From Gracilariopsis chorda (lineage: Eukaryota; Rhodophyta; Florideophyceae; Gracilariales; Gracilariaceae): a stretch of 64,000 nt of DNA. The DNA lies in the NCBI GenBank assembly GCA_003194525.1, contig NBIV01000235.1:51486-115485 (forward strand), read 5' to 3'. Numbering within the stretch: the stretch's first letter is position 1; every line of letters starts with the position of its first letter. The notes below the pieces were generated by a model. It searched no databases. It saw nothing but the letters and a program-made list of their open reading frames with translations, and was not told the DNA's origin. A program made the translations under genes and the position numbers. Of this stretch, positions 19,391 to 48,023 are shown piece after piece.

Positions 19391-22300
19391 GCTTTTCTCA
19401 GCTCTGAAAGGTTTAAACTCCCTGCACTGGTTGCCTACATCGCTAAGAACTTTGGCTACCTCTATGGTGTACAATACTTCTCAGTGTTGCAGACGAGAAA
19501 GTACAGTTCATATGGGCTGCTCGCTGGAAAATTGCGGTGTCTGCGGCACAAGTCGCAGTGCCGCTCCAACATTCGGGCAAAGTTCTATCCCATGGCTAGA
19601 TTTTGGGTTATTGAACAGGACCTGATGCACACGCACACCCGTCAACAACTTCCACGCCCCGATGATGTAGTGAAAAGGAGGTTTGAGGGCATTTGCTCCT
19701 CTTTAGCCTCCCGTCTACAAGAATGGGAAGAGCATATACGGAAAAATGGAGAATATGTACGTCTGTCATGCAAATTTTGAACCATACACCCCTTCCAGGG
19801 AGCCGAGTTCTACAAAAGCTCATCATGCTACATCCTAGAGCATTCACATGGACCTTGATCTCAAAGCGATGCAGAAACAGGTAGCAAAGACGATATGGCG
19901 TATGGCGACTACGGTGGGGCTGAGGACTTGTATCTTTTCTATTGCGTGTTGCATAGCACGAAAAGCCTTGAGATGGGAGGTATATTTGATTGCCATGCTT
20001 TGGAAAAAGGAGTGCACGAACCAAAACCCGAGCTTTGGAAGCAACACTCCTCGGTTTTACAGGAAGGAGGCAGGCTGGTTTCCAATCTACCGAAGAGGAC
20101 GTAGCAAGGACCTATCTCAGGGGAATACATCGGAAAAGATCGCATAAACGATGTAAAATGCTCAGATGAACTTCTGGATAACGAGTTAAACGTCGACAGT
20201 GGCGTAAGAGGCGATTTTGGCATTAGTCCTTTTGAAGCTAACTCCCCTGCTGCTTCTCCCAACTCCTCAACACAAACAGTGGACGCCAAATGCGAGCGTG
20301 CACCCCCCAGCGCTCTGAGCGCCGTGCTTAGCTCAAAAATGAGTAAGGAGAGTGAAAATCTCAACGCAAACGTTGCATATGCGCAGCAGGTTTCAGATGG
20401 GCAATCTGTTGAAGAAGATGAGGTGCTGCTCATTGATCGATTCTTAGATGACGAAGAGGAATTTCCTTCATTCTTCTTCGAAGACTCTGATGTTGGCATC
20501 CTGAATAAAGAAGAATCAGAATCAAAGGAGAAGGATGGCCTTGGAGAGAAGTACGAAAAATGCTGGAAAAAAGATTGTGATGAAGAACTGGGCACCGAAT
20601 CCGTACAGAACACGATATCGAATGAGAGAATTGAGGACTGTTTTAAAGCAGCTGTCTTAGCCTATCTGGAAACCCTTCCCCTCGATGCTCCTGTTGCAAC
20701 GGTTTTCAAGAAAGTTCAATTTGTCGCGGACTGCTTCGGGTACAGCTTATTCGTAAGGACTTCTATATACTTTGGAGAACGAAAGCGATCTCCAGATAAG
20801 GCAAAGTCTCCGAAGAGTCATGGTGCTGAACGTGGGAATAGAAGGGTTCTGAAAAATGGAATCATGAATTGAGATCAATACAATAACAAGATGAGGCGAT
20901 GCCTCTTCTGGACAACGATTAAGACAGAGGATTCTGGGCAGGAGAAAAATGGTGGAATGATCTACGTGGCTAATTTAAATGGTTGTAAACATGGACATGG
21001 TCCCTCTGGGAGCTTTGGTATTAGACATCTCAAGTCGCAAATGCGTTCTGAAGCGATACATATGACGAACGATTTGCATATGAGCTTTAGAGACACGATA
21101 CGAGACCTGGAAGACAAGTACAACCAAAAGATTAGTCCGGTGTCGGCGAGGAAGAAGTTGAGGTATGCTTCCTCTACAAGCAATCTCCACGATTTGGAAT
21201 GTGTAAGGTTGTGTGACCTGCTCTTTTAGTTGAGCCAGAAGGATGAAGAGAATAAGGGATTATTCGCTGCGGATGATCCGGGTAGGACGAATTACGCTTG
21301 TTGGTCGTTTCGAGAGCGAATGGAAGACTGCCAGAAGCTCGGCATTGTCCCAGGGGTATCTATTGATTGCAAAACCATAGCCAATAGATAAGGTTTCCCT
21401 CTGGTCACCATTAATGGAAGAGCCAATGATGGTCATGTGTTGACGTTTTTCATGGGGTACATGTGCTCCGAAACAGAAGAGGACTTCGTACGAATTCTGT
21501 CCTACTTCAAGTTTATAGTCGCGGTCTCACCGGCGATGGTAGTGATGGACCAGAACACTGCCTGTATAAATGCAGCTGAGAAGGTGTGCAATTCGTCCTA
21601 TATAAGCCTCGACGAATGGCATCTGAACGAGAATCAGAAGAAGAATGTGGCCAGTTGGTGTAGAAAGATGGGTAAGATGGAGTGGATGCACGATATGAAG
21701 AAAGACCTGTTCAACCTCAGAAAGTCATATATGTCGGGACCGTTTTTCGAAAGGAGAAGAATGCTAGAATCCAAGTACTTTGATGCTTTTGACGATCGTC
21801 TCCCTGTGTGGTATAAGTACTTGTACCACTATAAGCCGCATATGCTGGTGTCTTGCTTCCGAAATACGGCTATACCTACCCGTTACATGTTCCAAGAAAC
21901 TGGCTACACCGAATCTTCTAACTCTGCATACAAGAAGATCATTATATCGAAGAAGATTCCCTTGTGCAAGGTTCCTTTGGAGGTTCGGCGTATATCCCAA
22001 GAACGGGCTGATACTCGGAACTTGGAGCTTGTACGAACCTTATCTTCTCAAATTGGGAGATATCAGAAGACAAGAGAGCTTGAGCACTTTCTACCTGTAG
22101 AAGTTGTAGACAGTCTGGTGGCTGAGTACACGAACTACGCCTTGGCGCACTTCGTAGATTTGAGCTTTAAGCCCTCGAAGAACTACATTCTTTCCGGCAC
22201 AGAGGTTGTGGATTATTCACAGGAAGCGTGGCCGGAAGCACTCAGAAACCTGGGAAGTAGTTCAACCCCAGCAATTGGACCTGTAGCTCGCTTTAAGTTG

Positions 22301-23272
22301 AAATGGGGAAGCCATCTGAGTCAGAGCCGGAATTTGTCGGTGGATGAAGAGCGCTCATCACAGGAGACTGTTGTGCAATTCTCAAAAAGGTATACGGGGT
22401 CGGGGGATGACGTTAAGGCAGAGTTTATTGGTGTCTGTTCCTGTGGGCAGCCCTGGTCCGTTGGTTTTGCTTGTCGTCACATGGTTCGATGTGCTGTGGT
22501 TTATCAGGAAGAACGTTTGCGGTTCCCTGAACTACGAAACATACTAGGATACTTCATACCTCTTGAAGCGCTTTTCTCTACATACTGGAGAAAAGATACT
22601 TCTGCTATGACAGTCCCATACTTGGCGAAACTCAGGTCAGAGACCCGATAATTCAACAACGAGGAGATGGATTACCGACTACGCCATTTTGATGAGTCGA
22701 CGGAGAAAGAGTTTATCCCCATTGACTCAGATATACTTAGAACCAGTAGAGAAAACTCGGAAGTAGATGGGTGCAATACGTACATGGAAGGAAAAAACCT
22801 CTACGATGCTTTACATCGACAAGCTACTGGAACTGGACGTGTTGCGGTGAGTGGTGTTCTACGTCTTTTAAGGGATGCCATCGCGGACATTCAGCAAGGA
22901 AAAGCGACACACTTCGAAGCTAGAGGTACCTTTAAAACAAGGCTGGCTTCATTAACAGAACACGCGGAAGAAACAGAGAACACTGTCACTTTACTGCATC
23001 CATCTTCTTCTACAAAAGATTTCAGTTCATCAGGGATCCGTCCGCCAAACAATGGACGCCACAGGGCACAACGGAGAAAGAAAAGCTCCTTGGAGCGAAC
23101 GAGAAAGCGAGCGAGTACAAGCCCGAATTCATCCCAGGAAGCATCTCAGAAAGACTTTCACCAACCTTCAACATCCCCAGAAGCAGCTGTGGCACCCTCA
23201 ACTTCCATACCCCAAGACATGCAACACACAGCACTTCTAATGAAGTCAAATTCTCTCGGACACATTCAATAG
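19391..23272 (+). pseudogene. MULE transposase, decayed by nonsense codons
   Basis: One reading frame runs for about 1290 codons. Near 19500-19640 it has a FLYWCH/GCM1-like zinc finger (LRCLRHKSQCRSNIRAK...HTHT). An acidic region follows, then the DDE core: first D in SIDCKTIANR, second in VVMDQNTACINAAEKV, and E in GYTESSNSAYKK, with the usual WH-N motif EWHLNENQ. A SWIM finger CSCGQPWSVGFACRHM lies near 22435-22482. Stops lie at 19778, about 19858, 20102, 20870, 21227, 21389 and 22649, with no frame change seen. The last 200 residues after the 22649 stop are Ser/Thr-rich. Confidence 0.87.
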
Positions 23273-26452: not shown

Positions 26453-27067
26453 GCGCAATACATTGTTGAAGATGTATCTTGCACATATCCCACCCTTCGA
26501 GTTAATGCTTGTCTTCTTCGTATTGGTTGCGTTCGTTCTTGACACAGCAAGTCGTCGAAGAGCTCATCTGAAAACATTGAACAAACTAGTCTAACAAACA
26601 CAACTTCACTCCCTACCACAGGTGCAAGTCGCCAAGTCCCATATAAAAGCAGAGTCCGACCTTGTGTCTTCCAGTACTCTCAACATCAACCCCAACAGCT
26701 CGGGGTTAATTCGTTTCAGACTTCAGCCATCATCTATGAAGTCCATCTTGAACACCCTTGTGGTGTTATGCGCTCTTTTCTACATCTCTGTGGGATCAAG
26801 TCTCAAATTGCACGACACCGAGGAAAGGATGTCTGAGCCGTGCAACATTCCGTCCGATGTCGCGTACTGCATGGATGTGATGCGGGTGGGAACCAGATTC
26901 AATGATGAGAGCGCGCAGCACTTTGCGCGCCTCGAAGATCTCTTGTCGGAGCATGCATTGGAAGAATGCTCTTGGGAGTCATTTGAGGGAAAGAAGAGTC
27001 CGGACGAATGCATTTCAACGCTTTCAAGGTTCAGTGAGAATTCTGTGCCTCCGATTAGTTCTTCGAC
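26453..27067 (+). repeat. Near-identical 615-bp tract shared by genes A and B (copy 1)
   Basis: This tract matches 30246-30860 with a single substitution seen (C or T near 26582/30375). It covers promoter, leader, signal peptide and propiece and stops abruptly at TTCTTCGAC in the codons just before the cationic domain. Flanking sequences on both sides are much more divergent. Confidence 0.93.
26642..26649 (+). promoter_or_regulatory. TATA box of secreted-peptide gene A
   Basis: TATAAAAG lies 94 bases upstream of the ATG at 26736, placing the start of transcription near 26670-26680 and leaving a leader of about 60 bases. The same box occurs in genes B and C. Confidence 0.75.
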
Positions 27068-27230
27068 AGACCTTGACGTTTCTGAGCGTGGCTTGGATAA
27101 GGTTTGCTACAAGCTGTGCAAGAAGGTGAAGTGTCTCAAGTGCAAATTCAAGTTGAGGAAGAAGAAGAGGAAGAAGTGCAAGAAGAAGTGCAAGAGGAAG
27201 TGTCGCAAGAAGTGCAACAAACTGTTCTAG
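26736..27230 (+). CDS. Secreted Cys/Lys-rich peptide precursor A
   Basis: The precursor has 164 residues and no intron. Residues 1-21 form a signal peptide (MKSILNTLVVLCALFYISVG). Residues about 22-118 are an acidic, Ser-rich propiece with four Cys (CNIPSDVAYC and ECSWESFEGKKSPDEC). Residues 119-164 are extremely basic, with eight Cys mostly spaced CxxxC (CYKLC, KKCKKKCKRKC, CRKKC). Acidic propiece plus cationic Cys-rich C-terminus is the layout of antimicrobial or toxin-like peptide precursors, but no family match can be claimed. The ATG at 26736 is chosen because it starts the signal peptide and lies downstream of the TATA box. A paralogue lies 3.8 kb downstream. Confidence 0.82.
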   Translation: MKSILNTLVVLCALFYISVGSSLKLHDTEERMSEPCNIPSDVAYCMDVMRVGTRFNDESAQHFARLEDLLSEHALEECSWESFEGKKSPDECISTLSRFSENSVPPISSSTDLDVSERGLDKVCYKLCKKVKCLKCKFKLRKKKRKKCKKKCKRKCRKKCNKLF

Positions 27231-29499
27231 ATTTCATTCAGTGATAATCACGAAATCTTAGCCCATGGCCTTCTTTTTGTGGGAGGTGAGAGTTTTCCCT
27301 ATAGCTTAGGGAACGCTATTCAACCAGGACTCGCGACAACGTAAATGATCAGAAGATCTCTTAGAGTAATGAGTCAAGCCTGGAACGATTGGGCTTCATC
27401 TGTTCTACTAAAAAGAACGTTTCCTACGTCATCTTCTGTTCGCGTATTCCGAAATATTTCCGGAATTTGGTTCGTTCACGTATTTGGCAGACTTTTTGTC
27501 CAGTACCCCTGGGCATACCAGTGCATCCCTCGGCAGAATGGAGAAGTCAGGCACCCCTTGAACAAAAAAGTCCTTATTTCAACCGCTAACACCTGAAACC
27601 AACACATTAAACATTGGAAAGTATAGGTAGTGCTGATTCAAGTAGAACTACAGCGTCTGCTTTAAGACGTAGAATATTAAAAGGGAGGCGAAAGGAGGAG
27701 CTGATTCAGTGGTCAGGACACAATAGAAGAGGGGTAAGGACCCCCATTCTCTTAGAACACCGCTGAGCCTGGGCCACTGACTAACCCACGGGGCTTGGAC
27801 TAACGGCCTGCCCACAGCTGAGTGCGAAAACGAGTAGGGGTACCATTAGAAGCTCATTTGCTAACCTAGATGACTTCGAAAATGGCAGCAGCAGTCTAAA
27901 CTTTCGCTGTTAATATCTCAGCATCGACGCGTATATATCTTCGATCTGCAGCTCGCCGACACTACGCGAAGGCAGGCATGTAGCATAGATAAGTTTGGTT
28001 ACTGGCTGCATGATGATGATCGGCACAGCCCAAGCGTAATTTAACGTACCAAGCCATGCATCACGGCAGCCGTTCCCTACCGCGTACCCTTTCCCCCACC
28101 CGCTACAACTTCCACCCCTTAGAAAGGGAGGCGCGACATGGGGCACAGCATTGCTGTAACGCACTTCAGCGGGGGAGTATTGGCTACTTTGAATTGGGAC
28201 TCATAACGAGTTCCACATCGCTTCGAAGTGAGCAAAAACTTAGGGTCAACGTCTTGTACTGCCTGCAAACTACTGTTTTGGACGTCCAAAAGGTCCATCC
28301 CATGGTACACATGCACGTCCAAAATTTTCAATCGAAGCCCGGTCGCGGGCAAGGCCACTTCCGCAACTGGTGTTCGAGCCGAGATAGGAGTAAGCTGCGC
28401 GGGCGACGCGAAGCGACGTTTAGGTCAAAATGGCCGCATTGCGCGAGCAACGCAAAGGGCCGTCACGCCGCGTCGGGTATTGCCCTGAGCCCTACCGCGA
28501 CTGTGTCCGTTTCCACAGGCCGCGCTCATGGCTACGAGGACGCTGCGACAATGACGTGAGGTGTCTCGCAGCGTCGTTTCTTTTTTCCAAGTACACCATG
28601 GAATTCTCCACGTATAATATTTTAGCTTGTTCGAATCAAGTTTACGATCACCTTTAAAATGTTTGAAAAATATGCCTCAATAGCAACACACCATCTATCT
28701 ACCTAGTATAGATTACACGGCTGCCATTTGTTCAAAAGTCTATTGTAATGCCACAAACGTTACAAAAGATCACACGTCTTCATTACTGTTTGGGAGGCAC
28801 TCGTCCCAAGTTGGGACTGTCAAGGACGCTTTTTTCGGAAGAAGAAGAAAAAAAAGGTCGTCGGCCACTTAGTGATGTGGTGAACTGTGTTTCCACGCAA
28901 TTTTTCTTCATTCTTGTAAAGGAGCGAAAGCGGGATCGCATTGGTTATTCAACACCTATTCAGAACCAAGACCGACGAACTGTCGATCTGGAACTAGAAG
29001 AAGCTTCACTCTTGGGGGGAGCTCTATATTTATAATAACTGTAGGGGTGTGAGTCATGTTTTAGTGGTCGTCATAGTAAGCGGACCCTACTCCAGTACAG
29101 TTCTGTGCATGATCCATGTACTTGTCTCATATCACGATGGTTTTTCATTCCGACTGCATGGGTGATCAAGTACTTCCTACACATCCACACCATTTTCTCT
29201 CTCCTGGAAGGTGAGAAACCTAATCTTCATCTGGGCAGGTGCAGAAGTCAATTTTCGTTACGACAACGTAAGGTGGATCAAATATATCAACAAACTGTGA
29301 CTGCAATATCAGGCGTTCAAAATATAAGAGCTCCACTTGTTGTAAGCAACGCCGTTGGCTGTGATCGTCTGTCCAATTGCTGTGCTGGTGGACATAGTGT
29401 CGAGCATTGTTGGCGTAACGCGGCAGCTGAGGTTATCTCAAGTGTTTGTTGCGGCGCAAGCAGTGAGAAAAACCAAGTCCATCTCATGGCTTCTGAGCG
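27231..29499. other. Intergenic sequence between peptide units A and B
   Basis: No gene was recognised. The first 200 bases after gene A are distantly similar to the sequence after gene B (GTGATnATCACGAA, TATAGCTTA, ATGATCAGAAGA). A GC-richer island lies at about 28060-28560 with open frames on both strands but no recognisable domain. A run GAAGAAGAAGAAAAAAAAGG occurs near 28838. Confidence 0.45.
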
Positions 29500-30245
29500 A
29501 ATGCTTCGTTTCTAAACTTCAACCACGCGTTACGTTTCTGCATTCCATAACAAGTGCTGCAACCGCGGAATACCTAATTCAGGCGTCTCTCCATGTTCAT
29601 CTGCGAGAGGGGGAACTGAACACCTTGCCTGTTTCTGGAGACATCCTTTCCGAGAAATCGGCGTCTTTGCTAAGATAACCGTGCAAAAATAGCTTGCAGG
29701 ACCATTCTTTTCTTCGACTGTGATAATAGGAATGCTTTGATACTCGCGGGTAACAAGTGTTTAAATTTCATGTCTTCCATACCTTTTGTTTCCTTTCTGA
29801 TTCATCTGAACGCAGTAAAGAGTCTGCCCAATTGCGAAGTCTCCTCCAAAGATTCTCATCATTTGTTCGGTGTATTGATTGCTTCATATCATTCGCGGGG
29901 CCATTTTCATCACCAGCTCGTTGTATTTTATGCTTTATAAAGCCTCCAATTATACAAGAGATCAATTCTGAAGTGGACAGTCTCTCGATTTGCTTCAAGT
30001 TTAACTTGTTTCATGAAATTGGCATTGCTGAAAGTTCACGTCGATGTATCACGGTGTTTCATTCTCGAAGTAAGCGATAGGCTTTGAATCAGCTCATTTA
30101 GTTATTTGGTAGCTTAGACCGCATCAAAATCTAGGGTTGGTTGTTTAAGGGAATAGTCGCACAGTCTCTCATATTAAACCTCAATGGTAACCTTATTTCT
30201 GTACAACTCAAACTGCCGTTTACTATTTGTCAGACATTGCATGGA
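29500..30245 (+). repeat. Unit B upstream repeat
   Basis: Homologous to 25600-26452 (unit A) and 35131-36000 (unit C) at moderate identity. Shared landmarks include CATCTGAACGCAGTAA/CATCTGAATGCAGCAA and a CATATCATTC/CATATCTTTG block. It lies upstream of secreted-peptide gene B. Confidence 0.65.
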
Positions 30246-30860
30246 GCGCAATACATTGTTGAAGATGTATCTTGCACATATCCCACCCTTCGAGTTAATG
30301 CTTGTCTTCTTCGTATTGGTTGCGTTCGTTCTTGACACAGCAAGTCGTCGAAGAGCTCATCTGAAAACATTGAACAAATTAGTCTAACAAACACAACTTC
30401 ACTCCCTACCACAGGTGCAAGTCGCCAAGTCCCATATAAAAGCAGAGTCCGACCTTGTGTCTTCCAGTACTCTCAACATCAACCCCAACAGCTCGGGGTT
30501 AATTCGTTTCAGACTTCAGCCATCATCTATGAAGTCCATCTTGAACACCCTTGTGGTGTTATGCGCTCTTTTCTACATCTCTGTGGGATCAAGTCTCAAA
30601 TTGCACGACACCGAGGAAAGGATGTCTGAGCCGTGCAACATTCCGTCCGATGTCGCGTACTGCATGGATGTGATGCGGGTGGGAACCAGATTCAATGATG
30701 AGAGCGCGCAGCACTTTGCGCGCCTCGAAGATCTCTTGTCGGAGCATGCATTGGAAGAATGCTCTTGGGAGTCATTTGAGGGAAAGAAGAGTCCGGACGA
30801 ATGCATTTCAACGCTTTCAAGGTTCAGTGAGAATTCTGTGCCTCCGATTAGTTCTTCGAC
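30246..30860 (+). repeat. Near-identical 615-bp tract shared by genes A and B (copy 2)
   Basis: Partner of 26453-27067 at an exact offset of 3793 bases. It is identical through signal peptide and propiece, with a sharp end before the cationic domain. Confidence 0.93.
30435..30442 (+). promoter_or_regulatory. TATA box of secreted-peptide gene B
   Basis: TATAAAAG, 94 bases upstream of the ATG at 30529, inside the near-identical tract. Confidence 0.75.
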
Positions 30861-31038
30861 TGATCTCGACTTTTCTGAACATATAGTTCGTGTAAATAAG
30901 GCTTGTTACAATGCGTGCAAGATCGTGAAAGGTTTGAAGTGCTGGAGGATAAGCGAGTTGAAATGGGGCAGTAGTGCGAGGAAGAAGTGCATGAAGAAGG
31001 TTAAGAGAAAGTGCAGGAAGAAGTGCAAGAAAAGCTGA
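30529..31038 (+). CDS. Secreted Cys/Lys-rich peptide precursor B
   Basis: The precursor has 169 residues. The signal peptide and the acidic four-Cys propiece (residues 1 to about 112) are identical to precursor A. The C-terminal part differs strongly: six Cys (CYNAC, GLKCW, KKCMKKVKRKCRKKC), a Trp-containing central segment WRISELKWGSSA absent from A, and a basic tail. The pattern of constant leader and variable cationic end is seen in other organisms' venom and defence peptides. The target is unknown: it could be secreted for defence, competition or pathogenesis. The start is chosen as in gene A. Confidence 0.82.
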   Translation: MKSILNTLVVLCALFYISVGSSLKLHDTEERMSEPCNIPSDVAYCMDVMRVGTRFNDESAQHFARLEDLLSEHALEECSWESFEGKKSPDECISTLSRFSENSVPPISSSTDLDFSEHIVRVNKACYNACKIVKGLKCWRISELKWGSSARKKCMKKVKRKCRKKCKKS

Positions 31039-34000
31039 TTGTTCTCAAAGTGCAAGAAGAAGTAGTAAACTTTGTTCTGTTTACGGTGATCACGAACTCT
31101 ATGCAATGGCACCCGATTTATTTGCGGTGATGCACATATGTTTATAGCTTATAAAAAGTACTTGACCGCGACTCGGAACAGCATGAATGATCAGAAGAGT
31201 AGTTTTAAGAATTGATAATGTAATAGTCTAGAACGGTTGAGTGTGATGTACTTCATTATTGTTCGCCTATTTGACGCTTTCTTGCGTAATATATTTAACG
31301 TTTGGAAAAGCGGGACTGTGTAGACTGCCATGTCCATGTTGTCCATACAAATGAGAGCAACTTATTACAATCGGAATACTCCACACTTGATGCACTATCG
31401 AGAATCCTGGGCTGGGTTGGGTGGGGTAGTGCGACAGAAAGCAAGACGGAAGACCGAAATATACAAAAGATTGTTTGACCATTTGGTGTATGTAGAACGA
31501 ATTGCTCGACAGAACCCAAAGGACTTTGTAGAACGCTAGCGTTGACGTCGAAGAGCATCTTAGGCACAATCGCCTCAACATTGGCTCTAATAAATGCACT
31601 TGGCGGTTTTTGAAGGCCGAGGGGGATAGTAAACACGTCAAAAATCGATTTGGGAAAGAATGATTCAATCTAAGATTGGGCTAATCTCAATATTTCTTTC
31701 TTGGAGCGGGTGACAGCGAGACGCATGTTATTGGATTGAATCTAGGTGGGCGATTACGGAACATCATGATAGTGAAGTGTAACCTGCTGCCTGTAGTGCA
31801 TGTTACTCGTTCGAGAGGTGTGTAGGTGGTTACGTTTCTGAATTGGGTCTCTGTATTGGAACTGCGTGGATGACCATCTTCCCGTTTGGGATGGCTGAAC
31901 ACCAAACTCAAAACGAGCAACTGAAGCGCATATTTTGGCAGTATAAGACATGCCGGACTTGCCACAAATCTATTCTCGATTCATAACCACAAGCTCCTAC
32001 AACACAACTTCTGTCCAGCAAAGTTGCGTTTTCTTGCCTTGGATATTGGTCTTCCGAAATCTGACGGTCACCGTTTTTGTTCTTCTACCTTGTTTCTCCC
32101 ATAACCCTCCCATGCCCTTCAACTGTTCTATTGCGCTTTAGGTCAAGGCAAGGCATAGCATTGCACAGTTGCGACTAGGAGTCGCAGCAAAACCCTCTCA
32201 CGATGATTGGGTATTTGTGCCCAACAAGCGAAAGAACTCTTCCTGCCTTACAACCAGGATTTCCAAACCTGTCTATACGCTTTGGTTCTTTAGAGTATAG
32301 TACGTTCTGGCCGCGTTCAGAGCGTAATAAGGGTGTTTGTCGAGGCCAAATGGTAGTATGATGCCTTTAATGAACCCGAAAGGATCTACTCGAGTGTTAA
32401 ACGCAACGTCTATCTCATAGAGTATGCGTGTGGGATATACTGTTCAATAAGGCTACTTGAGTGATCAGCGCTAGTAGTGGCGAAAACATGTCATGTAGTT
32501 CCCGACATGGCACATTTTGGGCCGTCGGCGCAAGTCCCTATGCAGCTGTTCCTCGATTTCACCACATGCAACCTCGGATTCACTGTGTCCTGCATAAGAG
32601 TCAATAAACTCGGTCTTTCTTTCGTATCTTGTTGCTCCGGACTCCAGTTTTGCACTTACGATACCCTTTGTCCTTGTTGTCATTTTCCACCCTGGGCCTT
32701 ACTACCTACAAGCACCAACCAGCTGGACGAAAGGGATCAAAGATTTGACCAAATCTCGTGTTGCCACCCACGAACACCCCTTGATTGCATATAGCAATCG
32801 AATTCTAAGGCTTTATCCCGACAACTGACAAACATATGTCACAGTATTGCGGCAAGCAATGCCGCGTTGGCGCAATTGATGCCTTGCTTGGGCTTTGGGG
32901 TTGCATGCGCCTTTCGCGTAACAAGCCCAGTACGGCTTTGCAAAATATGTGAAGACTGGCAATGGTATCGTCTTTGTTGCTTCTTTTGGGATTTGATACC
33001 TTTGTTGGTGTACCATCGTATAGATACTGTTCCTAACAGTACTACACTATCGTACAGAAAGGATAGTCCTTATCCAATATATCTATCCAAGACAACGATA
33101 CTGTTTCTAACCGTACTACACCATCGAACGGAGAAAACAGTCTTTGATGAATGGCGGTTTTTATTTAACCACAGCTTAGCGCTGCGGCTTGTCGGTTTGA
33201 CGGGGTAGAAACATTCTTTGCAATCAGTAGAACTTACTGCTACAGCAAGGATCTGTGTCGGTGCTAGCTAGCATCGTTTCTTGCCCGTAAGTTCCTGTGA
33301 ACCATTGGACCGGCGTCCATTGTCAGAGCTTATCAGGTGTTGTCTGTTGACGAAAGAATACCTCTCTCTTAATCAGGCTTTCCCGAATACTACGGGAACT
33401 GGTTCTCGCAAACTACTCGTTCTCTATCGCTCTGGCTGCGTCTATCGCGAAGTAATGGATTATTGCGCTCTTTCGGTGAACTAACTTGTGAAGTAGATTT
33501 TTGAATTTAGATAGTCGAATACGCAGAACTTATCCTGTTCACTGAGTACTAGGAGGTTCTCACTGCTCCTCCCTGAAAGGCTGGGTGGGAATTTTTCGCG
33601 AAGAAGATGGTAGAGTCGGAGTTAGAAACTCAAGCTGCTTTCGGAGCGATGAGAAAGCCAAGATCGCGAATGTCCAGAAGGAGGAGGATCGTCGCGCTAT
33701 TGTCCTCATACCGAGGGAGGCGTTTGACCTTCCAACTCAGCCGCACTGACACCTACGACCCAGCAAACTGCAGTGCAACAAGAAATCTTCTTCTGCATTC
33801 CTAGAAATTCTTTTTTCGAGGGAACCGTGGAAGTACATTTAGTTGGGCCAATTAAGGTTGCGAACTGCTATGAGATGTTTTCGGTCGTTTACGGAAGTCG
33901 AATAAGCTTACTTGATCTAGTAGAGATACAACCATGAAAGACGGATTAAATAGAATAGTAGAGATGGGACTGCAACACCAGGCTTTCAAAAGGTAGAGGC

Positions 34001-34690
34001 TCTAAATCTCACAAACAACGTCGACCATGACCCGCATAAGTCACATTTCGGGGGTAGTGGGTATGGTGTGAAGGAGTGCTGCAAAGCATTAAAGTTCAGA
34101 AGCGAAAAGGGTTCAAGCAACTAACATGGTCTTTAGGACTATGCGTGTAATGTAGAGTGAATAGGTGATAAGTACTTTGTTAGTGTTCATTTATTACGAA
34201 CACATTGCGATGTGAGTAAATAAAGCCGCGCCTGCCTCAACTCTGGAGAAAGGGGATAGAACTGACACGAAAGAAGCACAATTCCATTTCTGGTTCCTCG
34301 CGAGGCGCAACACTTCCGATCCAACACAACTAAAGGTTTTACCCCAATTTCTCTCCAGGCACCCCAATACTCTGCGGGGCACGTGTGTCGTAAATCTTGA
34401 CTTCAAAAAGGTGAAAGGAATAGATTTTTAAGGGCACCGCAGAAGTGGATTTATTTGAGCCAATTTCGCTTATGAAGAGCTACAGGACGTCTGGCCGACG
34501 CTACTCTGGCAGAGGCGATCTTCGTTGTTGTTCTCTTGATCAACTACGGTATCGATCGTGTTCGATATATGATATCCTGTAGCACTTCAAGTTACCTGCC
34601 CACCACTCCTGGGAGCAGGATGTATCCTCTGGATCATCCTGTAGGATCACAGTTCTGCTGAGATGTTGGTGATGGGTTGTTAACCTCCAC
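31039..34690. other. Intergenic region without a recognised gene
   Basis: Several overlapping frames of 60-130 codons occur on both strands, but none shows a convincing family motif. Minus-strand frames at 31267-31668 contain IPLGLQKPPSAFIRA, faintly like the RT motif of Gypsy elements, too weak to call. A pair of 40-bp direct repeats lies at 33023-33136. Confidence 0.45.
33023..33136 (+). repeat. Two direct repeats of about 40 bp
   Basis: GATACTGTTCCTAACAGTAC at 33023 recurs as GATACTGTTTCTAACCGTAC at 33097, 74 bases later, each followed by a TACAC(T/C)ATCG block. The function is unknown. Confidence 0.6.
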
Positions 34691-35746
34691 CTCTCCCTTT
34701 TCCAAAATTAAAAGATCTGTCGCTTGGCAACAGCCTGAAGGCGAACAATAATCTCTATGAAAATATCCCGTAAACTCTAAGCAAAAAGAAGAAACGAACA
34801 GAAGCCCTATAATGGCTTTGGGATTTCTACATTTTCCGGAACTATACCACTTCTTCCGCTTCCAAATGCTATTGCTAGTACTGAAAGTCGATAAATGCTC
34901 TGATAAGAGCTCTGCACATGTTCTTCTGGTAGAGGGGGAACCAAATACTGTGCTTTTTCTTGGGATATAGTTACCTGAACAACGTAATCGGTGTCTTGGC
35001 TGGAAGAAGCGTCCAAAACGTTCATAAATAACATCTTTCAGAACCGTTCACCCCTGCGATAAAAATAGGACTGCACTACAAGTGGCGTCGAGCAGACATT
35101 TGTGCATCATAATTTTTGATTCATACCTCCTCCAACATTGTGTGTTCTGTCTGTTTCATCTGAATGCAGCAATAAGTTCTATTTGCTCGCACAAACTCCT
35201 CACAAGATTTACATCATTCGCTTGAGCTTTGGTTGCTTCATATCTTTGAAATCAGGAGAACATTGTCATCAACAACAGCTCCTCTTCAAAATGTTTGTCC
35301 TTAATAAAGAAAAGATTAGTTCTCGATTGAATGGATATTAGGGTAAAGAAAGTGCTGTGATACTTGAGGAAGGCAGATGAATGTCAGTACGTGTACGTTC
35401 CCAGAGCGTTTTATTCCATCAACTTTCAGCATGTGACACAAAGGGGACACTGCGCTCACCTCGCAGTCGGCTGTGTCGGCAGACGAACCAACCCACGTGC
35501 TCGTCATTTCCACTTTTCGGAGGAGACCTCCGACCAAGTTTGTTGTCTTTTTGACTTCAATTGAGGCTTCTTTGGAAAGCTTTTTTACTCAAAAGCAGAT
35601 TTTCTTGTAATCCATCTCCAACACTTAGAACCCAGTATCTCTGTATATTGACAATCCTCTTGGCTCTGCTCCTCATTCTCAAAACGCTACTGAGTCTCTC
35701 GAAATTGACTTGTTCTCCAAGCGATAGATATTGCTGGTTCACCAGA
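34691..35746. repeat. Right arm of the >=1.05-kb inverted repeat
   Basis: Reverse complement of 1-1052, almost identical. The interval between the arms is about 33.6 kb and contains all the nested elements and genes A and B. The right arm overlaps the unit C upstream repeat. Confidence 0.93.
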
Positions 35747-36000
35747 AAGTGCTGCCGATTGTCTTGTTATCAATCCAAGTCTAACTAGCCCTGACTAAAA
35801 CTCAGTGTTGATGCTTCGCATGCTCGTTGGATACAGGCACCAGCAACCACCTTGAACGATTTGTTTCAAGCTTGACTCCCTTCATGAAGATGCATTGTTG
35901 AAATTTGATCTCCCCGTATCACCCTCTGAGTTCAACCCTCAATTACATAATGCAGCTTGAAACAGCACATGTAGATCTTTGTCTGCTCTGTTCTGAATGG
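35131..36000 (+). repeat. Unit C upstream repeat
   Basis: Third copy of the sequence found upstream of genes A and B, in the same orientation. Relative to them it has about 530 extra bases at 35337-35870. It precedes the cationic peptide gene at 37675, but at a greater distance. Confidence 0.6.
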
Positions 36001-37562
36001 AAACACTGAGTATTACCGAAAACAATAATCAAGGTTTGACTTCGGCTGCTGATGTCTCCATGGACAGGAGATGCTCCAGATTGGCAATTCATGGTAACTC
36101 TTACTCACTAATACGGCCAAAAAACTGACATTCAGCAGGGCCTTTTAATTGGGAGGTAGCGTTAGAAGACTCAGAGCTTGGTGCAGTCCCCTTGTATCTG
36201 ATCTCGTTATTCAAAAGAAACATATCATATATTGGTAGTGTACCCATTAACAATCAGAACGCAAGAAGCGTGAACTAAGATGATGACGAAGCCCTCGAAG
36301 CCCGCTTCATGACATTCTTGTCAACGGTTCCATTCTAAAGCAGTTACCTTTGGGGACATCTTGAAATGGTACTCGAATGAATTCTGATTGCTGACTAAGA
36401 TTGCAAAGGCAGCAGTTGACCGCAGTCAGGGCTCAAGAACATAGAACAGAACATTGTAGATGATGTGATAGCGGCAACGGCAACTAAAAGAGTGTGAAGT
36501 GCCAGGAAATACCAATGACGACTCTTCAAGACGCCTTTTTTCAGAATCAAAAGGTGGCGTTTAATGTGCATCAACCAGGCGAAGTGTTTTGGTGACACCC
36601 ATGGAAAGAAACCATGAAACCAAAACGGGACGTCTAGAGGCCATGAGCAGAAGTGATGTCGCCCGCTACTCTCTTGATATGGAACACTGGGTAATGCAAT
36701 TTGAGTTATTTTTGATGCTACAGTCCTTCAGGTACCAAATACTTCCGGGTCAGAAAGAGAGCAAAACCCTTTCTGGGTTGGGGCAAAGTGGTGGTTCTCG
36801 GTATTTCAAATCGGTAACAAAGCTCCTAAACTTTGGATGCCTTGAAACGGAGGCAGTTTGATGCTCAACAAAAGCGTCAGTTTTGAGGCTACATGGCACA
36901 ACAAGGACAGAAAGCTACGAAGGATGAAGAGTTGTCGGGCTTGGCGGAAACTTGTGAGTAAAAAATGCATGGCGCTTAAACCCATGTTGAAGGTTGCCAC
37001 CATCTCGCACGTACATGCGATTCTGACCAACCGTTTCTGTCTGTTGGGGTTACGGGGAGGAAGCAATTGACATTTTGAAGCAGACATATGGGATTGATAA
37101 GGTTCATATTAGTAGAATCAGAAATATCTAGCTGGTTGCAGTTGCTACTGAGAGTTGACCTTGGTATCAACGGTACCACGGGCATGGTGCAGTGTCTTTA
37201 ATGCGGGCCCCAATGCAATCAGTCGATTGTTATGGGTTCAGGATGAACGAACATGTACCTCTTGTTGCCCTTTTCTTACAATTGCGCCCATTATTATCAG
37301 CATTTACAAATTCTCGAACGTGGGGGCTTGTTCCAACGCTTTTAAGCCGTGCTTTTTCCGTGTAAAGTCATTTCCCCTACATCATGTCTCGCATTTGGCT
37401 TGTTGTGTTCTTCCAAAGCTGTTGCTTTAACATGATTTGTGGGTAACATGTGGCAAACATTGTGAGCAAGAAGAGCCAGAACACATTCGTTTGAAGATGC
37501 ACTGCATTACAACAACCGAAATCTACGGCCACCCAAACGCCGAGTCTCAGCTCCTCATTTGT
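36001..37562. other. Intergenic sequence upstream of peptide gene C
   Basis: No gene was recognised; only overlapping short frames occur. Confidence 0.45.
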
Positions 37563-37570
37563 TATAAAAG
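37563..37570 (+). promoter_or_regulatory. TATA box of peptide gene C
   Basis: TATAAAAG, 112 bases upstream of the ATG at 37675, predicting a leader of about 80 bases. Confidence 0.72.
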
Positions 37571-37674
37571 CTGGCCGGGTGGCTGCACAGGAATTTGGCA
37601 CAACTATTACCCCTCTCCAAAGTTCAACACTACTCAACCCAACACGCAAGCTTTGCTTCATATTCAAAAGCACA

Positions 37675-37941
37675 ATGATTACCGGCTCCAAGCTCTTTTT
37701 CATTGTGTTGTTGCTCTCTGTCGTTCTTTCGTGCGCCTGGGCCGACGCTACCAAATCTATCGAAGTCAGCGAAGCTACCGAACTGGATAATGAACATGAT
37801 GGCTTTGTTTTGCCTATCTCGATGCGTCAGAGAGGATGCCTATCGCGATGCATAAGAGGGTGTAGAAGAATTTGTAACAGGTTTCTTACGTCTAGCAGTG
37901 GGAGACGTAGGTGCCGGAGGGCGTGCAGGAATATCATCTAA
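37675..37941 (+). CDS. Secreted Cys/Arg-rich peptide precursor C
   Basis: The precursor has 88 residues. The signal peptide is residues 1-23 (hydrophobic core LFFIVLLLSVVLSCAWA), with likely cleavage after AWA. A short acidic propiece follows (SIEVSEATELDNEHDG). The last 38 residues are highly basic with six Cys: CLSRCIRGCRRIC is four Cys each three residues apart, then a Ser/Gly loop, then CRRAC. Two CxxxC helices joined by a loop is the pattern of plant alpha-hairpinins and similar antimicrobial peptides; disulfide-braced helical folding is inferred, not shown. Its sequence is unlike genes A and B, but architecture and TATA promoter are the same. Confidence 0.8.
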   Translation: MITGSKLFFIVLLLSVVLSCAWADATKSIEVSEATELDNEHDGFVLPISMRQRGCLSRCIRGCRRICNRFLTSSSGRRRCRRACRNII

Positions 37942-42222: not shown

Positions 42223-43350
42223 GTGGTACCCTCGTCTATCTTCACAGACTATCACGCTCTAAATGCACTCCAGCGGCAGCTCCAAGCGTTTCAAAGCGAC
42301 ACCTCAGTCCCAGTCCACACTCCACCCACATTGCAAGGGCAGCCTGCACACGGCATCCTGATCACTGAAATCATCCCATGCGGCGATCCATGCAACGATG
42401 ACCCAGTGTTCTTACCAGCAAAGCGCAAAGAACTCGAGGGACTTTTGAAACGCGGCACCTACAAGGTTGTGTGCAAGGAGGAGCTCCCTATCGACGCGAG
42501 CATTATCGGAGGCCGATTTGCACTGTGTTTAAAAAACGCGGAGACATACACCCTATTATACAAGGCACATTTTATCGCTCAAAGGCATATGGAGAAAGAG
42601 AAAGGGAGCATCGTTCACCATGCTACTACCCTGCAACAGAGCTCTATCCGCATGCTTCTCGCGCTAGCCGTCATCTATGTCTTCCAACTCTTGTCAACCG
42701 ATATCACTCAAGCGTACCTGCAGTCCGCCTCCGACCTGATGCGCGACATCTATACTCGCCCTTCAAAGGAATTCGAGCTCGCGCCCTACAAGCTATTAGA
42801 ACTCTGGTGTCCCCTTTACGGGCTCACGGAGTCTGGCGACTATTGGAGATACACGTTCTCAGAGCACATGCAACACGACCTGCGGATGAAACAAGCCATC
42901 GGCGATATGTCTTTGTTGTTCAAGCATATCAAGGGAAAACTGTAACACTGATCACAATGAAGGGTAGGAATGGTGAATGATTGTCTGGGCTCCCTCTTTC
43001 TCAGGGAGCTTTGACTTTCTCACCTCTTTTATAGTAATACTAGACTAGCGTAATGTATACGCAACGTGACTACACTGTCGCCGAACAGCTTGAAGTGCTA
43101 CAAGGGTGAAAGAACTGTCTCCTACGAGCTTGAAGTGTTACAAAAACTCACTGGCCTCGCTGGAACCTACGTCGACGACTCACTACTTGCCGGTACACCC
43201 ACTTTCATGAAGGATACAGAAGCAACTGCGAAGAAGTTTGAATCTAAGCAAAAGTGTAACAAAGTGATGGTGAATGAAGTCTGACGTAGGCTGTCTTCTG
43301 TGTTACAAAAAGGTCTTGGACAATTTTGTCTTCGCCGGACTCGAGGTTTC
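42223..43350 (+). pseudogene. Copia reverse transcriptase, split by a solo LTR
   Basis: The first part shows RVT_2-type sequence (ELEGLLKRGTYKVV, STDITQAYLQSA, LWCPLYGLTESGDYW). The active site GTYVDDSLLAG lies beyond the inserted LTR, at about 43169-43201. RT residues on either side of the insertion are adjacent once the LTR and one target copy are ignored. Confidence 0.82.
42941..43142 (+). mobile_element. Solo LTR in Copia RT
   Basis: A 202-bp insertion starts TGTAACA and ends TGTTACA, an inverted repeat with TG...CA ends. AAAAC is duplicated exactly on both sides (42936-42940 and 43143-43147). It contains a short hairpin GCTCCCTCTTTCTCAGGGAGC. The parent element was not found in the window. 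Confidence 0.88.
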
Positions 43351-43402
43351 AACTGTCCCGAATGGGTTTTGTTTCCACCAGCGAAAGCCCATATAACGAC
43401 TT

Positions 43403-44150
43403 GTGCCCCTCGAGCCTGACACGACCTTCAGTGCATTCAACAGTAGGCTGATGTCAATAAAATGGATAACACACACACGCCCAGATGTATCATTTCGAGT
43501 ATCGCAACTGGCTCAAGTCACGGAATTAGCCTTTTCCAAGGACCATATTAACCAGCTCAACTCATCGGTAAATCACCTGCGCTCTACCTCTAAGCAATGT
43601 ATTCTGCAACAAAAACTCGATCTACCGTCATTGTACATTCGAGTTTGCGCTGACGCCGCCCTTGCCAACAACCCCGAACAGTCCTCACAACTAGGATATA
43701 TCGTTACAATATGTGACAAAAACAACAAGGGCAATGTGTTGTGCTATCGTTCGTACAAATCTCGAAGAATTGTTAGAAGCGTACTGGGTGGGGAAATATA
43801 CGCGTTTGACGTGGCATATATGTTGCGCTACGATTTGAAAAGATCTTGGATCGGAAGCTAAGGTTATGTATGCTGACGAACAGAAAGTCTCGATTTGATA
43901 CGATTGTTAAGAATTCGTTTATGACAGAGAAACGGCTTATGATTGACGTCAACGCCGCACGAGAAGCATACTAGAAGTTAGAGATCTCTGATATCGGTCA
44001 TGTTGATGATCCAGACAACCCCGCTGACGGCTTAACCAAAGCCAAACAATGTAACGGGCTGAATACCGTCCTACAAACCGGTACCGTTAACCATGAGGTC
44101 AACCAATGGGTTGTGCGAAACGACCGGAGCGTCTTCACGCCACATGACTG
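43403..44150 (+). pseudogene. Copia RNase H and C-terminus
   Basis: It contains ITHTRPDVSFRVSQLAQVT, IRVCADAALANNPEQSSQLG and VLGGEIYAFDVAYM, followed out of frame by MTEKRLMIDVN and DDPDNPADGLTKA near 43921-44040. These are the standard landmarks of a Copia RNase H end. Stop codons and a frame change break it. Confidence 0.8.
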
Positions 44151-46310
44151 AAATTTCAACTGCCACTTGCACACTTTGACATCCGAGACGTCAACTATCT
44201 ACCCGTCTTCTCTTTCTTTCTTAGAAAGATAGTGAATGATAATCATACGTCACTGCTGACAACGCGCAAATGGTCAGATACGAAAGGTCGTCAGGAAAGT
44301 AGTATATGTAGGCCCGGTCACTGCCTGAAACCACAATTGTAAAAGGGTAACCTTCTTGTAACATACTCCACTACCTTCCTCGTAGTTGACATAGTTCTAC
44401 GCGGTTGGTGGACGTTAGAAGTCACATTTCTTACGCAACTCTCTACGGAGCGACAGGGGATCCATATTTGTCCAAATATTGGCCAAGTCAAAGACGTTAT
44501 TTTATTGGAGCTGAAGCGGGAGAGTGACGCGCTTTGTTTACAAAATTGCATGGAGCGTGGGCGTATGTGCTGTCATTTTGTGAGCAAAAAGTAGCTGGAA
44601 TCCTGATTGGGAATCTGTCCGGGTCATTCTCTCCGAAGCCATAGGGGGCACCGACGATTGCCACGCAATACTGCACAGCATGTCTTACAGGTGTTTGGAG
44701 GATTCTCGGTCACATTCACATAGGAGAGGCGACGCTCTAGTGAAATAAGCATATCTCAAGCAGCACAATTGGTTCGAAGGCATTCGTTGAACATCTTGCG
44801 GAGCTATCCACCTGACATTCTCTCACGTCTTCGCGCCGCCTCCGCGTGTCTTTCTGACTGCATCCTCGTCGTATTTTTGCGCCTCTTCCCGCCTCCCCTT
44901 GCAGATAGTCTCTGGGCATCTCTTTTCTTTCATTGGCTACAATAGCTTACTTTCTAATGCGCAATATGGCAAACGCGACACGAAGCGTCGCACTTGTGCA
45001 AAAGCAACCGTTGCCCACGAGAACCTGTTTATACGTCATCTACAGTAACATTACTGAATGACTGCTTGCTCGTTCCCTCTTTCGATTGCGAAAGAATTTG
45101 TCGGCAAGGAGCCGCACTCCCGAAACATAGGCTTGCATGCCGTTCTGGTTCAGTAAAATTCCTACAACTTCATTAGTTTCTGGGAGCGAACTTCAGCGGA
45201 AAAAGTCCCTATTATTTAATTATCAACAACTGGCACTGATTTGCTCTGTGACCAGACCTTTGTAATCACAGAAAGTGTGAGTTTGTCCACAGACTTGGTG
45301 TGTTTGATACCTGGTTTGAAAAGAAATAGAGCATCGCAATTGAAAACTTGCTGAAGCAACGTTCAAGATAAGAAAGGGAAACGTTGCCAGGAGTACTCAA
45401 TGTCTGTGGGATGGTTTGCAGAGATTCGAAGCGAAAATCCGAGTTCAATATGCCAAGAGCTAACTTTATCCTGCGGCGCCCTCTTATTGAGGCTACGCTG
45501 TTCAAGGCAACACAATCAGTATACACCAAACCTATGCAAACTTCTTAAGATGGATTTGTAATGCCCAGCTACAGCTCAGACATTGGACGAAGAGTTGATA
45601 AGCTACAAAATAGGAGCTTCTGCGAAGAGCACCGCACCTTATACCTATTACCATGTAGCCTACGTGCCCTTGTAAACCATCTCCCCTTGAGAAAGAGCAT
45701 TGGGATTGTTCAACGAGTGTTGCCGGGTGGAATCAAACTCAAAACCGTTTGTAGTCATAAATACGCGGTCCACTTTCAACGTTTTTTGTGACAAGGCACC
45801 AAGTACGTAAGACTTACAAGAAGGCAGAATCATAAGAGTAATTATTGCTACTGAGAGTGGGACACGAGACAGCTAAACGTTGCACAAAGGTGGCGGGCTC
45901 TGCTGCGCGGGGACCTCATTTGATGATATACTCTGGCTTTGTGGCTGCAAGTTCCTGTGAGAGATGCAGTTCACTTAGGCGAAAGAAATGTTCTACTTTA
46001 ATCAGAACCGCCCAAACTTCATACTTTTGTTTCTTTTATATTTCACATGCTGCTCAGGGTGCTGAACAAGGGAATATATTGATTACAAAGTCTATTTGGA
46101 AGGAGATTATTTGGAACCAAGGCGTTAACGCCCTGTTCTATGCTAAGACTACTCATATCAAATATCCATTGCTATCCTTTGTTCGTACGATGCACTTCTT
46201 TGGATGTACATGCTGTGCGGATAGCTGGTTTCACTGTGGCTCTCCTATTCATAAGCCAACATACTGCTTCTCGGGCGGTATCCTATCCCACAAACCTCGT
46301 ATACAAACAT
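44151..46310. other. Intergenic region without a recognised gene
   Basis: Open frames on both strands up to 177 codons (45845-46378) show no family features. A CT-rich stretch at 44206-44226 (TTCTCTTTCTTTCTTAGAAAG) follows the Copia remnant and may belong to its 3' LTR. Confidence 0.45.
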
Positions 46311-48023
46311 CTATGACTTTGGCGGTCGGTGTTTCTTTTGAATGTGCGTACCCAAACCTTGTTGGGAAGAAAATCTGAGAAAACATTCTGGACAGCCAAA
46401 TTGCCCCGAGTGTGGATGCTTTTGTCGAATGTGATTCTGTAATCCAGTTTTCTTGTTATACTGCTTTCCACATTTTTCGCAGGAAAAGCTTGGCGTCGTA
46501 GACCCAGAATGAACTTGACTGTGAGCATGTAAAGCCTCTACCGACGCAAACGTTCTGTTACAAACAGAACATCTGCTATCTGCATGCTTCGCTTGGTGGC
46601 GATCGATAAATTTCTTATAAGGTGTTGAATAGGAACAAAGAACACAGGTGTACGTTTTTGAACAGTTTTGTTGATGGAACGCGGTTTCGGCAGGAGTGTT
46701 AAATGTGCGCATGCACTTAGCACACGTATACCTACTGCGTCTGCTTGGTTCTCGTTTCTGAACTTCGGTCTCAGGCGCAGATGTTTCTGGCCTGCTGTCA
46801 GTTTCTTCTGCCCCTCCAGTAGATGGAACAGCGATATTGGGAGATGCGCGTTGTTGCTGTGACTTTGGCGCCTGGTGTTTCTTTTGAATGTGTAAACCCA
46901 AACCTTGTTGGGAAGAAAATCTGAGAAAACATTCTGGACAGCCAAATTGCCCCGAGTGTGGATGCTTTTGTCGAATGTGATTCTTTAATCCGTTTTTCTT
47001 GTTATACTGCTTTCCGCATTGTTCGCAGGCAAAGCTTGGCGTCGTAGACTCAGAATGAATTTGATTATGAACACGTAAAGCCTCTACCGACGCAAACGTT
47101 CTTTTGCAAATAGAACATCTGCTATCTGTATGCTTCGCTTGGTGGCGATCGATAAATTTCTTAAACGGTGTTGAATAGGAACAAAGAACGCAGGTGTACT
47201 TTGTTGAACAGCTTTGTTGGTGGAACGCAGCTTCGACTGGGGTGTTAAATGTGCGCATGCACTTAGCACACTCATCCCGCCTGCGTCTCTTGGGCTCTCG
47301 TTCCTGAACTTCGGTCCCAGACCCAGACATTTCTGGCCTGCTTTCAGTTTGTTCTGCGCCTCTGGTAGATGGAAAAGCGAAATTGGAAGATGCGCGTTGT
47401 TGTTGTGACCTTCCTGCGGTGAATAGACCTCCAGAAGATGCACTTTGTGGCCATCCTGCAGTAGATGGACCTGCGACATTGGATGATGCAAGTTGTTGTT
47501 GTGGCCACCCTGCATTTGATGGACCAGCGACACTGGACGATGCACGTTGTTGCTGTGGCCATCCTGGCGTGGATGGACCTGCGACACTGGGATATGAGTG
47601 TTGTGTTCTTCTTGCTCTAGATGGACCAGCGCCACCAGCGCCACCGGAAGGTGTCATACCGGTGGGAGGCTGAGACTTTTCGGATACTTCTCCTGGGAAG
47701 CGCAGTAAAGAAGGATGCACAATTTGGCGTGCTCTCGCTGCTTCGACACTTGCTGGAATTCCCGAGCAGTCCGCGTCGAGGTTCAGTAGTATTTGATTAA
47801 CGGAATCTCGGGAACGCTTTTTTCGTTCTGTGCTGTTTGCTGAACTTCCGCTCGGATTAGTGCTACCCTGCGAATTGTTTTGTGATGGCATTATAGATTT
47901 GGGTTTCTGTTTTTGGATATTATCGGTTTGGTTAGGTCGGCGTTTGTTGCTGTGAGTGTTTGTCTTTGTTACTGTTGTGTTCTTATGTTTATGGATGGAT
48001 GGTGCAACATTTGTTGCGCTCAT
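46311..48023 (-). CDS. Ten-finger C2H2 zinc finger protein with an internal duplication
   Basis: The protein has 570 residues and is uninterrupted. The N-terminal 90 residues are Ser/Thr/Asn/Lys-rich with a basic KKRSRD. Residues about 145-230 hold an 18-residue repeat (VAGPS-x-x-GWPQQQ-x-ASS). Two modules of five fingers follow. Each module has one C2HC finger (CAKCMRTFNTP) and four C2H2 fingers starting CVLC, CSIC/CSVC, CEQC/CEKC and CPEC; module 1 is at about 255-390 and module 2 at about 430-565. A basic cluster KRRRRDE precedes module 1. It is probably a nuclear DNA- or RNA-binding protein. The modules are very similar, so the duplication is recent. A TATA-like CTATAAGTA lies only about 6 bases before this ATG, so an internal Met may be the real start. 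Confidence 0.85.
   Translation of the reverse strand: MSATNVAPSIHKHKNTTVTKTNTHSNKRRPNQTDNIQKQKPKSIMPSQNNSQGSTNPSGSSANSTERKKRSRDSVNQILLNLDADCSGIPASVEAARARQIVHPSLLRFPGEVSEKSQPPTGMTPSGGAGGAGPSRARRTQHSYPSVAGPSTPGWPQQQRASSSVAGPSNAGWPQQQLASSNVAGPSTAGWPQSASSGGLFTAGRSQQQRASSNFAFPSTRGAEQTESRPEMSGSGTEVQEREPKRRRRDECAKCMRTFNTPVEAAFHQQSCSTKYTCVLCSYSTPFKKFIDRHQAKHTDSRCSICKRTFASVEALRVHNQIHSESTTPSFACEQCGKQYNKKNGLKNHIRQKHPHSGQFGCPECFLRFSSQQGLGLHIQKKHQAPKSQQQRASPNIAVPSTGGAEETDSRPETSAPETEVQKREPSRRSRYTCAKCMRTFNTPAETAFHQQNCSKTYTCVLCSYSTPYKKFIDRHQAKHADSRCSVCNRTFASVEALHAHSQVHSGSTTPSFSCEKCGKQYNKKTGLQNHIRQKHPHSGQFGCPECFLRFSSQQGLGTHIQKKHRPPKS

Follow-up and report, generated by a model that had tools for sequence, protein, structure and literature searches.

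What do two neighbouring genes encode whose products are identical from residue 1 to 114 and then end in different, strongly basic tails? The question is raised by a stretch of 64,000 nucleotides of the red alga Gracilariopsis chorda (contig NBIV01000235.1, positions 51,486 to 115,485 of the forward strand; this whole stretch is called the window), in which an initial annotation, made from the sequence alone, had pointed to three small genes, A, B and C. Their places were confirmed, as were the features attributed to them: all three are uninterrupted open reading frames (ORFs) on the + strand (164, 169 and 88 amino acids, respectively) with TATAAAA upstream, an acidic propiece and a basic tail (net charge of propiece/tail -12/+24 in A, -13/+19 in B and -4/+11 in C, with the junction set by eye), and the tails hold 8, 6 and 6 cysteines. 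Here, we describe A and B as members of a family of secreted-type precursors from gracilarialean red algae that seems not to have been described before; its conserved propiece is joined to one of two unrelated classes of cationic tail.

Relatives were sought in a set of 5.8 billion proteins and in the 91.3-Mb assembly of the alga itself (1081 contigs, among which C235 carries A and B of the window). Protein A as query retrieved B and five other relatives from the protein set (expectation value, E, 3.6e-79 to 5.7e-4), and a profile built from 14 family rows gave eight matches at E ≤1, of which P0007 and P0008 were new; the named relatives are P0005 of Agarophyton chilense and P0007 of Gracilaria domingensis. 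The initial annotation had also proposed to look for further loci with the same propiece in the host genome, and such loci were found. Searches with A and with a member of the second tail class described below, the helix type, returned 23 and 25 match rows, respectively, where one row may represent only a piece of a gene, and reading of the frames gave 16 open-frame places sharing the propiece, haplotype and duplicate copies counted. Four are of the A type, namely A and B on C235 and their counterparts on contig C308, and 12 are of the helix type (one each on C94, C161, C240, C60 and C133, two each on C179 and C15, and three on C199). Several of the 16 places form near-identical pairs, and the distinct genes are fewer than 16. 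A leader, an aligned acidic propiece with four Cys and a switch from acidic to basic after [ST]-x-[RH] are found in A, B and the 14 further open-frame places, including C60, in which one Cys is moved (the first is lost and another gained) and the stop comes earlier than in its kin; gene C does not have this combination. Decayed copies on C76 (two), C349, C852 and C112, together with further fragments, suggest a birth-and-death turnover of the family. A third tail class was sought among the short own-genome matches, which by eye were only decayed or unrelated fragments. One helix-class member (L023 1465-2175, on C199) has a Pro/Tyr-rich C-terminal extension of ~40 residues, a possible further tail module.

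The view that no described family is involved held up in the databases. Pfam gave nothing above cut-off for A, B, C, P0006, P0007, P0008, L013, L017 and L023, NCBIfam nothing above cut-off for the family, and the PDB sequences no match for A or for the family profile; among the Pfam matches of the nine proteins scanned, sub-threshold rows included, there was no cathelicidin model. A match of P0008 to the Pfam model of styelin, an ascidian antimicrobial peptide, was rejected as chance-level (E 0.029, 15.2 bits at a cut-off of 27).

That one propiece carries two kinds of tail follows from comparing the classes region by region. In hhalign alignments of six A-type with nine helix-type rows, the propieces matched with a probability of 98.6% and an E of 6.9e-16, whereas the tails reached 0.1% and an E of 0.66, i.e., no detectable homology. 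Likewise, in all nine cross-class pairs the propieces stood at z 17.7-28.0 over residue shuffles, with 0 of 300 shuffles scoring as high, against z -0.5 to 1.5 for the tails, where 25 to 198 of 300 did. A tree of the propiece (15 rows) separates the two tail types completely, with a support of 100/100 (four of its 12 inner branches are unresolved), and both sides of the split contain own-genome as well as foreign proteins, so that the tail exchange is probably older than the species involved. The proposal of a real family of secreted type with a conserved front and differing ends is thereby borne out, at the level of tail classes.

The propiece comprises 92-102 residues and ends on Arg or His. 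Its first Cys is followed by Pro and V-(A/S/V)-(Y/F)-Cys-x-Asp, the third Cys lies near a Trp, and the fourth comes thereafter; a hydrophobic N-terminus, by eye a signal peptide, precedes it in the members, with P0005 and P0006 lacking the start. Complete propieces carry charges of -11 to -26 and tails of +13 to +31, and the charge reverses after [ST]-x-[RH] in all 20 family rows with a junction set (by eye; none was set in P0006). P0006, with no clear junction and its start missing, was left out of the tree, the profiles and the charge counts, the partial P0005 out of the charge correlation given below, and near-identical rows (both of C179, C240, C199c, the second C15 copy and the C308 alleles) out of tree, correlation and TATA count.

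Unrelated cationic tails behind one conserved propiece are a feature of cathelicidins, and the plan of the red-algal genes is the same, apparently evolved separately. The cathelin domain has ~100 residues and four cysteines, and cathelicidin tails are both helical and disulphide-bonded. Its fold is mixed alpha/beta, unlike the propiece of A, which is predicted to be helical by AlphaFold at moderate to low confidence, and unlike it the red-algal propiece matches no Pfam family at cut-off. As outlined in parts of PMC4571063, cathelicidins share with our family a signal peptide, a conserved anionic propiece, a highly variable cationic C-terminal peptide and charge balance between the two, but have four exons, whereas the red-algal genes are single uninterrupted ORFs. 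We consider it somewhat probable that the family consists of cathelicidin-style precursors freeing a cationic peptide, most likely antimicrobial or microbiome-controlling, and a role in defence, as suggested initially, would fit this interpretation. The signal peptide, judged by leader composition, would send the A/B precursor into the secretory pathway, where the acidic four-Cys domain could balance charge as a propiece that is probably folded. The strongly cationic C-terminal part would be released by a cut near the conserved Arg/His. In A and B this peptide would be a Lys/Cys helical hairpin laddered by disulphides, in the other class a linear amphipathic cationic helix, and in either form it would most likely act on anionic microbial surfaces.

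The helix tails are Cys-poor, Lys/Arg-rich and show a regular hydrophobic face; their best 18-residue hydrophobic moment of 0.75-0.96 was reached by 0-14 of 1000 shuffles in nine of nine rows. Moreover, propiece and tail charge are correlated within this class (r = -0.79 in a set of nine related rows, with 45 of 10000 permutations giving an equally low value), a relation also described for alpha-defensins and avian cathelicidins in the parts of PMC4571063 concerned with charge. An amphipathic design is not needed by the main rival explanation, namely that these are cell-wall or matrix proteins whose polycationic tails anchor to sulphated galactans (agar), with the classes differing in binding mode and without any killing. 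Neither would wall binding need an acidic, charge-balancing propiece, and structural proteins less typically show a turnover that leaves several decayed copies behind. However, tails charged to this extent would bind any polyanion, those of A and B are not amphipathic and A-type tails would bind galactans equally well, the tail of A is conserved between species as expected of a structural ligand, and the organisms named among the matches, Agarophyton chilense and Gracilaria domingensis, are agar producers. Taken together, we regard a wall or matrix function as unlikely.

The initial annotation had taken the tail for the variable part of the precursor, which the orthologues of A did not bear out. 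Among these four, tail and core of the propiece are conserved to about the same degree (identical residues in the tail, 40/46, 39/46, 36/46 and 28/42; in the core, 55/65, 49/65, 53/65 and 49/63), and the signal peptide is less conserved (13/22, 6/18 and 8/20, P0005 lacking it). The tails of A and B are homologous to each other (residue-shuffle z 10.4; 26 of 45 residues identical) and the two genes consequently differ within one tail class. Ratios of non-synonymous to synonymous substitution rates (dN/dS), computed pairwise for propiece and tail apart as had been proposed, indicated purifying rather than positive selection. Six of the 11 pairs compare diverged family members and are not all independent (three share the members C94, C161 and C60); in all six, dN/dS is below 1 in both regions. 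In five of them, among which A/B is confounded by the conversion described below, the tail (0.32-0.41) exceeds the propiece (0.10-0.25), and the pair C161/C60 is reversed (tail 0.41, propiece 0.60). Gene C and its copy on C349 gave a tail dN/dS of 1.30, on five differences, and the four other near-identical pairs, with ≤4 differences per region, are uninformative. A hypervariable tail under positive selection was rejected on the six diverged pairs; judged by these sequences, the family appears to be under constraint with somewhat faster tails, and an arms race was not detected.

Constraint on the propiece is also what one would expect if the protein remained uncut, with the acidic four-Cys domain as active part and the cationic tail serving for targeting or membrane docking. 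The propiece is under real constraint, as seen in its conservation among the A orthologues and its lower dN/dS in five of six diverged pairs, and a dibasic site is missing; the charge reversal is nevertheless sharp in 20 of 20 rows, and two unrelated tail classes on one propiece speak against such a protein, to which we give little credence. Release of the tail as a cationic peptide remains our preferred interpretation.

How might the tail of A be built? AlphaFold predicts two helices, 116-138 and 142-160, with block values of 86-92 for the predicted local distance difference test (pLDDT) in a model that is weak overall (mean 68). The structure prediction suggested initially thus gives a two-helix hairpin, and the CxxxC pairing proposed along with it fits by position: the eight Cys of A would pair in nested, antiparallel fashion with position sums of 284, 284, 285 and 284. 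P0002, P0003, P0004 and P0005 allow the same nested ladder (range 1), P0006 roughly so (range 3), while B on C235 gives three equal sums (Table 1), its two Cys-less positions being ones that would face each other. From sequence, symmetry and partner loss are suggestive of a ladder, not strong evidence, and the disulphide pairing in A and B tails is one that we infer. On the C308 allele, the stop of B lies further downstream than on C235, and the product is nine residues longer with two further Cys (window 31036-31065; L004 2008-2037).

An antiparallel helical hairpin with nested disulphides and facing CX3C motifs is characteristic of the alpha-hairpinins, according to parts of PMC7191063 and PMC11591084, and it could be argued that the genes are ordinary members of these plant CX3C defence peptides by convergence, with no new family involved. 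Gene C comes closest. Its tail has a CX3CX12CX3C core (Cys 63, 67, 80 and 84) and two upstream Cys (55 and 59), within the inclusion criteria given in PMC11591084, i.e., C-X3-C-X4-20-C-X3-C with one or two extra Cys allowed outside the core. The A tail is at least predicted as a helical hairpin. Yet neither A nor B contains a C-X3-C-Xn-C-X3-C core free of Cys in X, and both are outside the 4C and 6C motifs: A has 4+4 Cys (spacing 3,4,2,11,3,3,3, thus 3,4,2 and 3,3,3 within the halves) and B 3+3 (3,7,15,7,3). Furthermore, Cys-poor helix tails occur at 12 of the 16 open-frame places, and A/B precursors carry a single tail and their own four-Cys propiece, whereas the known precursors covered in the relevant portion of PMC7191063 are modular arrays or vicilin-linked, with no such propiece. 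We hold this explanation to be very improbable for A, B and their kin.

For gene C, the sequence argues for a separate alpha-hairpinin-like gene outside the A/B family. It had been described as unrelated in sequence with the same plan; this general plan is present, and its propiece shows no homology to that of A/B (z 0.2-2.6 in comparisons with P0006 and five other propieces). No relatives of C were found in the protein set at E ≤0.001. In the genome, C lies inside an inverted duplication of ~9.45 kb and ~100% identity on its own contig (window 34693-44141 against contig 52539-43091), whose second arm (contig 43091-52539) extends into window 1-1054 and which is either a recent duplication or an assembly join; a further copy on C349 encodes a protein 94% identical. 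The duplication starts inside a repeated element at window 34410-34753, which is ~230-340 bp long and occurs at many genome places with 73-91% identity (40 of 84 candidates scored).

Several points weigh against the release of a cathelicidin-style peptide. The junction, set by eye, has no dibasic site, and its Arg is replaced by His in B and P0003. By hydrophobic moment, neither the A tail nor the B tail is amphipathic (377 and 156 of 1000 shuffles as high). The charge correlation, whose statistics ignore kinship among rows, fails in the set of 14 rows that includes the five complete ones of the A type (r = -0.38, 921 of 10000) and turns positive within the A type (five rows, r = +0.65). The AlphaFold models are weak overall, with mean pLDDT of 68 and 52. 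The Cys symmetry of A is only mildly unusual, being matched by 3948 of 200000 random placements and 3024 of 50000 with minimum spacing, the two Cys lost in B would be partners by chance in 4 of 28 cases, and the two extra Cys in the C308 allele of B stand outside the nested scheme. Pairwise dN/dS found no positive selection in the 11 pairs. Finally, secretion, cleavage, disulphide pairing and antimicrobial action are steps that we infer.

Why, then, are A and B identical in front? The exact identity of leader and propiece noted initially was confirmed, and its apparently fixed nature turned out to reflect gene conversion between old paralogues, which occurred separately on two contigs and ended where the tails were too different. 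The tract of ~615 bp includes 283 bp of upstream DNA. Relative to the ATG, A and B of C235 share every base between -283 and +331 apart from the one at -150, and those of C308 every base between -283 and +341 apart from the one at +260; nowhere between -250 and +299 is there a site that distinguishes A from B on both contigs. Within the tract, four sites are the same in A and B of each contig and different between C235 and C308. Just outside, A/B identity is much lower, at 40-60% in the upstream flank, 50-60% within the tails and 25-50% in the sequence downstream of the gene, and all coding differences between A and B on C235 lie from +332 on, with a tail dS of 0.79. A single recent duplication as the origin of A and B was rejected on account of these flanks, the tail dS and the contig-specific bases common to both genes in the tract. 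Conversion thus keeps promoter and propiece uniform while the tails are not. C235 and C308 look like two haplotypes. They match through A and B and diverge ~200 bp past B (window 31241 onward; C308 from ~46891), and from window 31533 on it is C349 that matches C235; haplotypes or copies differ structurally here.

The promoter layout is likewise shared. Each of A, B and C has one TATAAAA within 300 bp upstream (-94, -94 and -112), and in all 10 genes examined (nine from the family, plus C) the start codon is preceded by the element at -94 to -134, the copies of A and B being common by conversion and hence not independent; in shuffles of the same 300 bp, TATAAAA fell between -150 and -80 in 83 of 10000. 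The features are collected in Table 1.

Table 1. Features of genes A, B and C (positions in the window).
Feature	Position	Strand	Description
Conversion tract, A side	26453..27067	+	promoter, 5' untranslated region, signal peptide, propiece; one A/B difference inside, at -150
TATAAAAG of A	26642..26649	+	TATA element at -94
Gene A	26736..27230	+	signal peptide ~1-21 (by eye), acidic four-Cys propiece ~22-118, Lys/Cys tail 119-164
A tail	27090..27227	+	Cys 124, 128, 133, 136 and 148, 152, 156, 160; predicted antiparallel helical hairpin, four putative nested disulphides
12-bp tandem repeat in A	27170..27217	+	consensus GAAGAAGTGCAA, 4 copies, codes the CxxxC run of A
Conversion tract, B side	30246..30860	+	counterpart of A-side tract
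TATAAAAG of B	30435..30442	+	TATA element at -94; within the conversion tract common to A, hence not independent
Gene B	30529..31038	+	leader and propiece as in A (residues 1-114 identical), divergent 6-Cys tail
B tail	30883..31035	+	nested pair sums 292, 292, 292; positions without the Cys of A are Gly135 and Val158
12-bp tandem repeat in B	30981-31031	+	consensus GAAGAAGTGCAA as in A, codes the CxxxC run of B
TATAAAAG of C	37563..37570	+	TATA element at -112
Gene C	37675..37941	+	signal peptide (by eye), short acidic propiece, 35-residue Arg/Cys tail

Elsewhere in the window, long ORFs at 7013-9340 and 51983-55267 resemble retrotransposon polyproteins (reverse transcriptase, RNase H and integrase by eye), a 399-residue ORF at 21452-22651 resembles a MULE-type transposase with a SWIM-like Cys/His motif (by eye), and a 570-residue ORF on the - strand at 46311-48023 has two near-repeated blocks of apparent C2H2 zinc fingers (by eye).

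Other precursors share parts of this logic. In those of frog skin antimicrobial peptides, the acidic propiece is short, lacks Cys and ends in Lys-Arg, unlike the long red-algal propiece with its four Cys and no dibasic site. In common with them and with alpha-defensins, it follows a signal peptide and offsets a cationic peptide (PMC7073735 and PMC4571063, each in part). The fungal and insect hairpin loop peptides (2026) consist of two helices joined by symmetric nested disulphides, a build that the A and B tails may resemble, but they are hydrophobic with few or no charges and have ~85 amino acids including the signal peptide, as far as parts of PMC13357843 describe them; the word propeptide does not occur in that paper, nor do alga, Rhodophyta and seaweed. 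The tails of A, B and C (+24, +19 and +11) are, by comparison, neither hydrophobic nor almost uncharged, and those of A and B follow a long acidic propiece. Alpha-hairpinins have been predicted in algae (PMC11591084, seen in part), with no mention of Gracilaria, red alga or Rhodophyta in its main text. In the open-access literature on red-algal antimicrobial, cationic or cathelicidin-like peptides, no such gene-encoded family appeared among the top matches listed. What appears to be new is the family and its propiece; the precursor logic was already known.

Tentatively, and at a little less than even chance, we propose that a cathelicidin-like immune arsenal arose independently in red algae, with a charge-neutralising four-Cys propiece, unrelated cationic effectors, a new disulphide-laddered, four-rung poly-Lys hairpin arising from a 12-bp repeat, and conversion keeping the front uniform with the tails free to diverge. 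Gracilaria and related seaweeds are grown as agar crops and bear dense surface microbes. If the tails are effectors, these algae would possess a host-peptide system built on vertebrate cathelicidin logic from unrelated parts, a clear case of convergence, and the family would offer a testable way of approaching the control that seaweeds exert over their microbiota. The two tail classes on one propiece, moreover, allow one to ask how a precursor swaps its effector.

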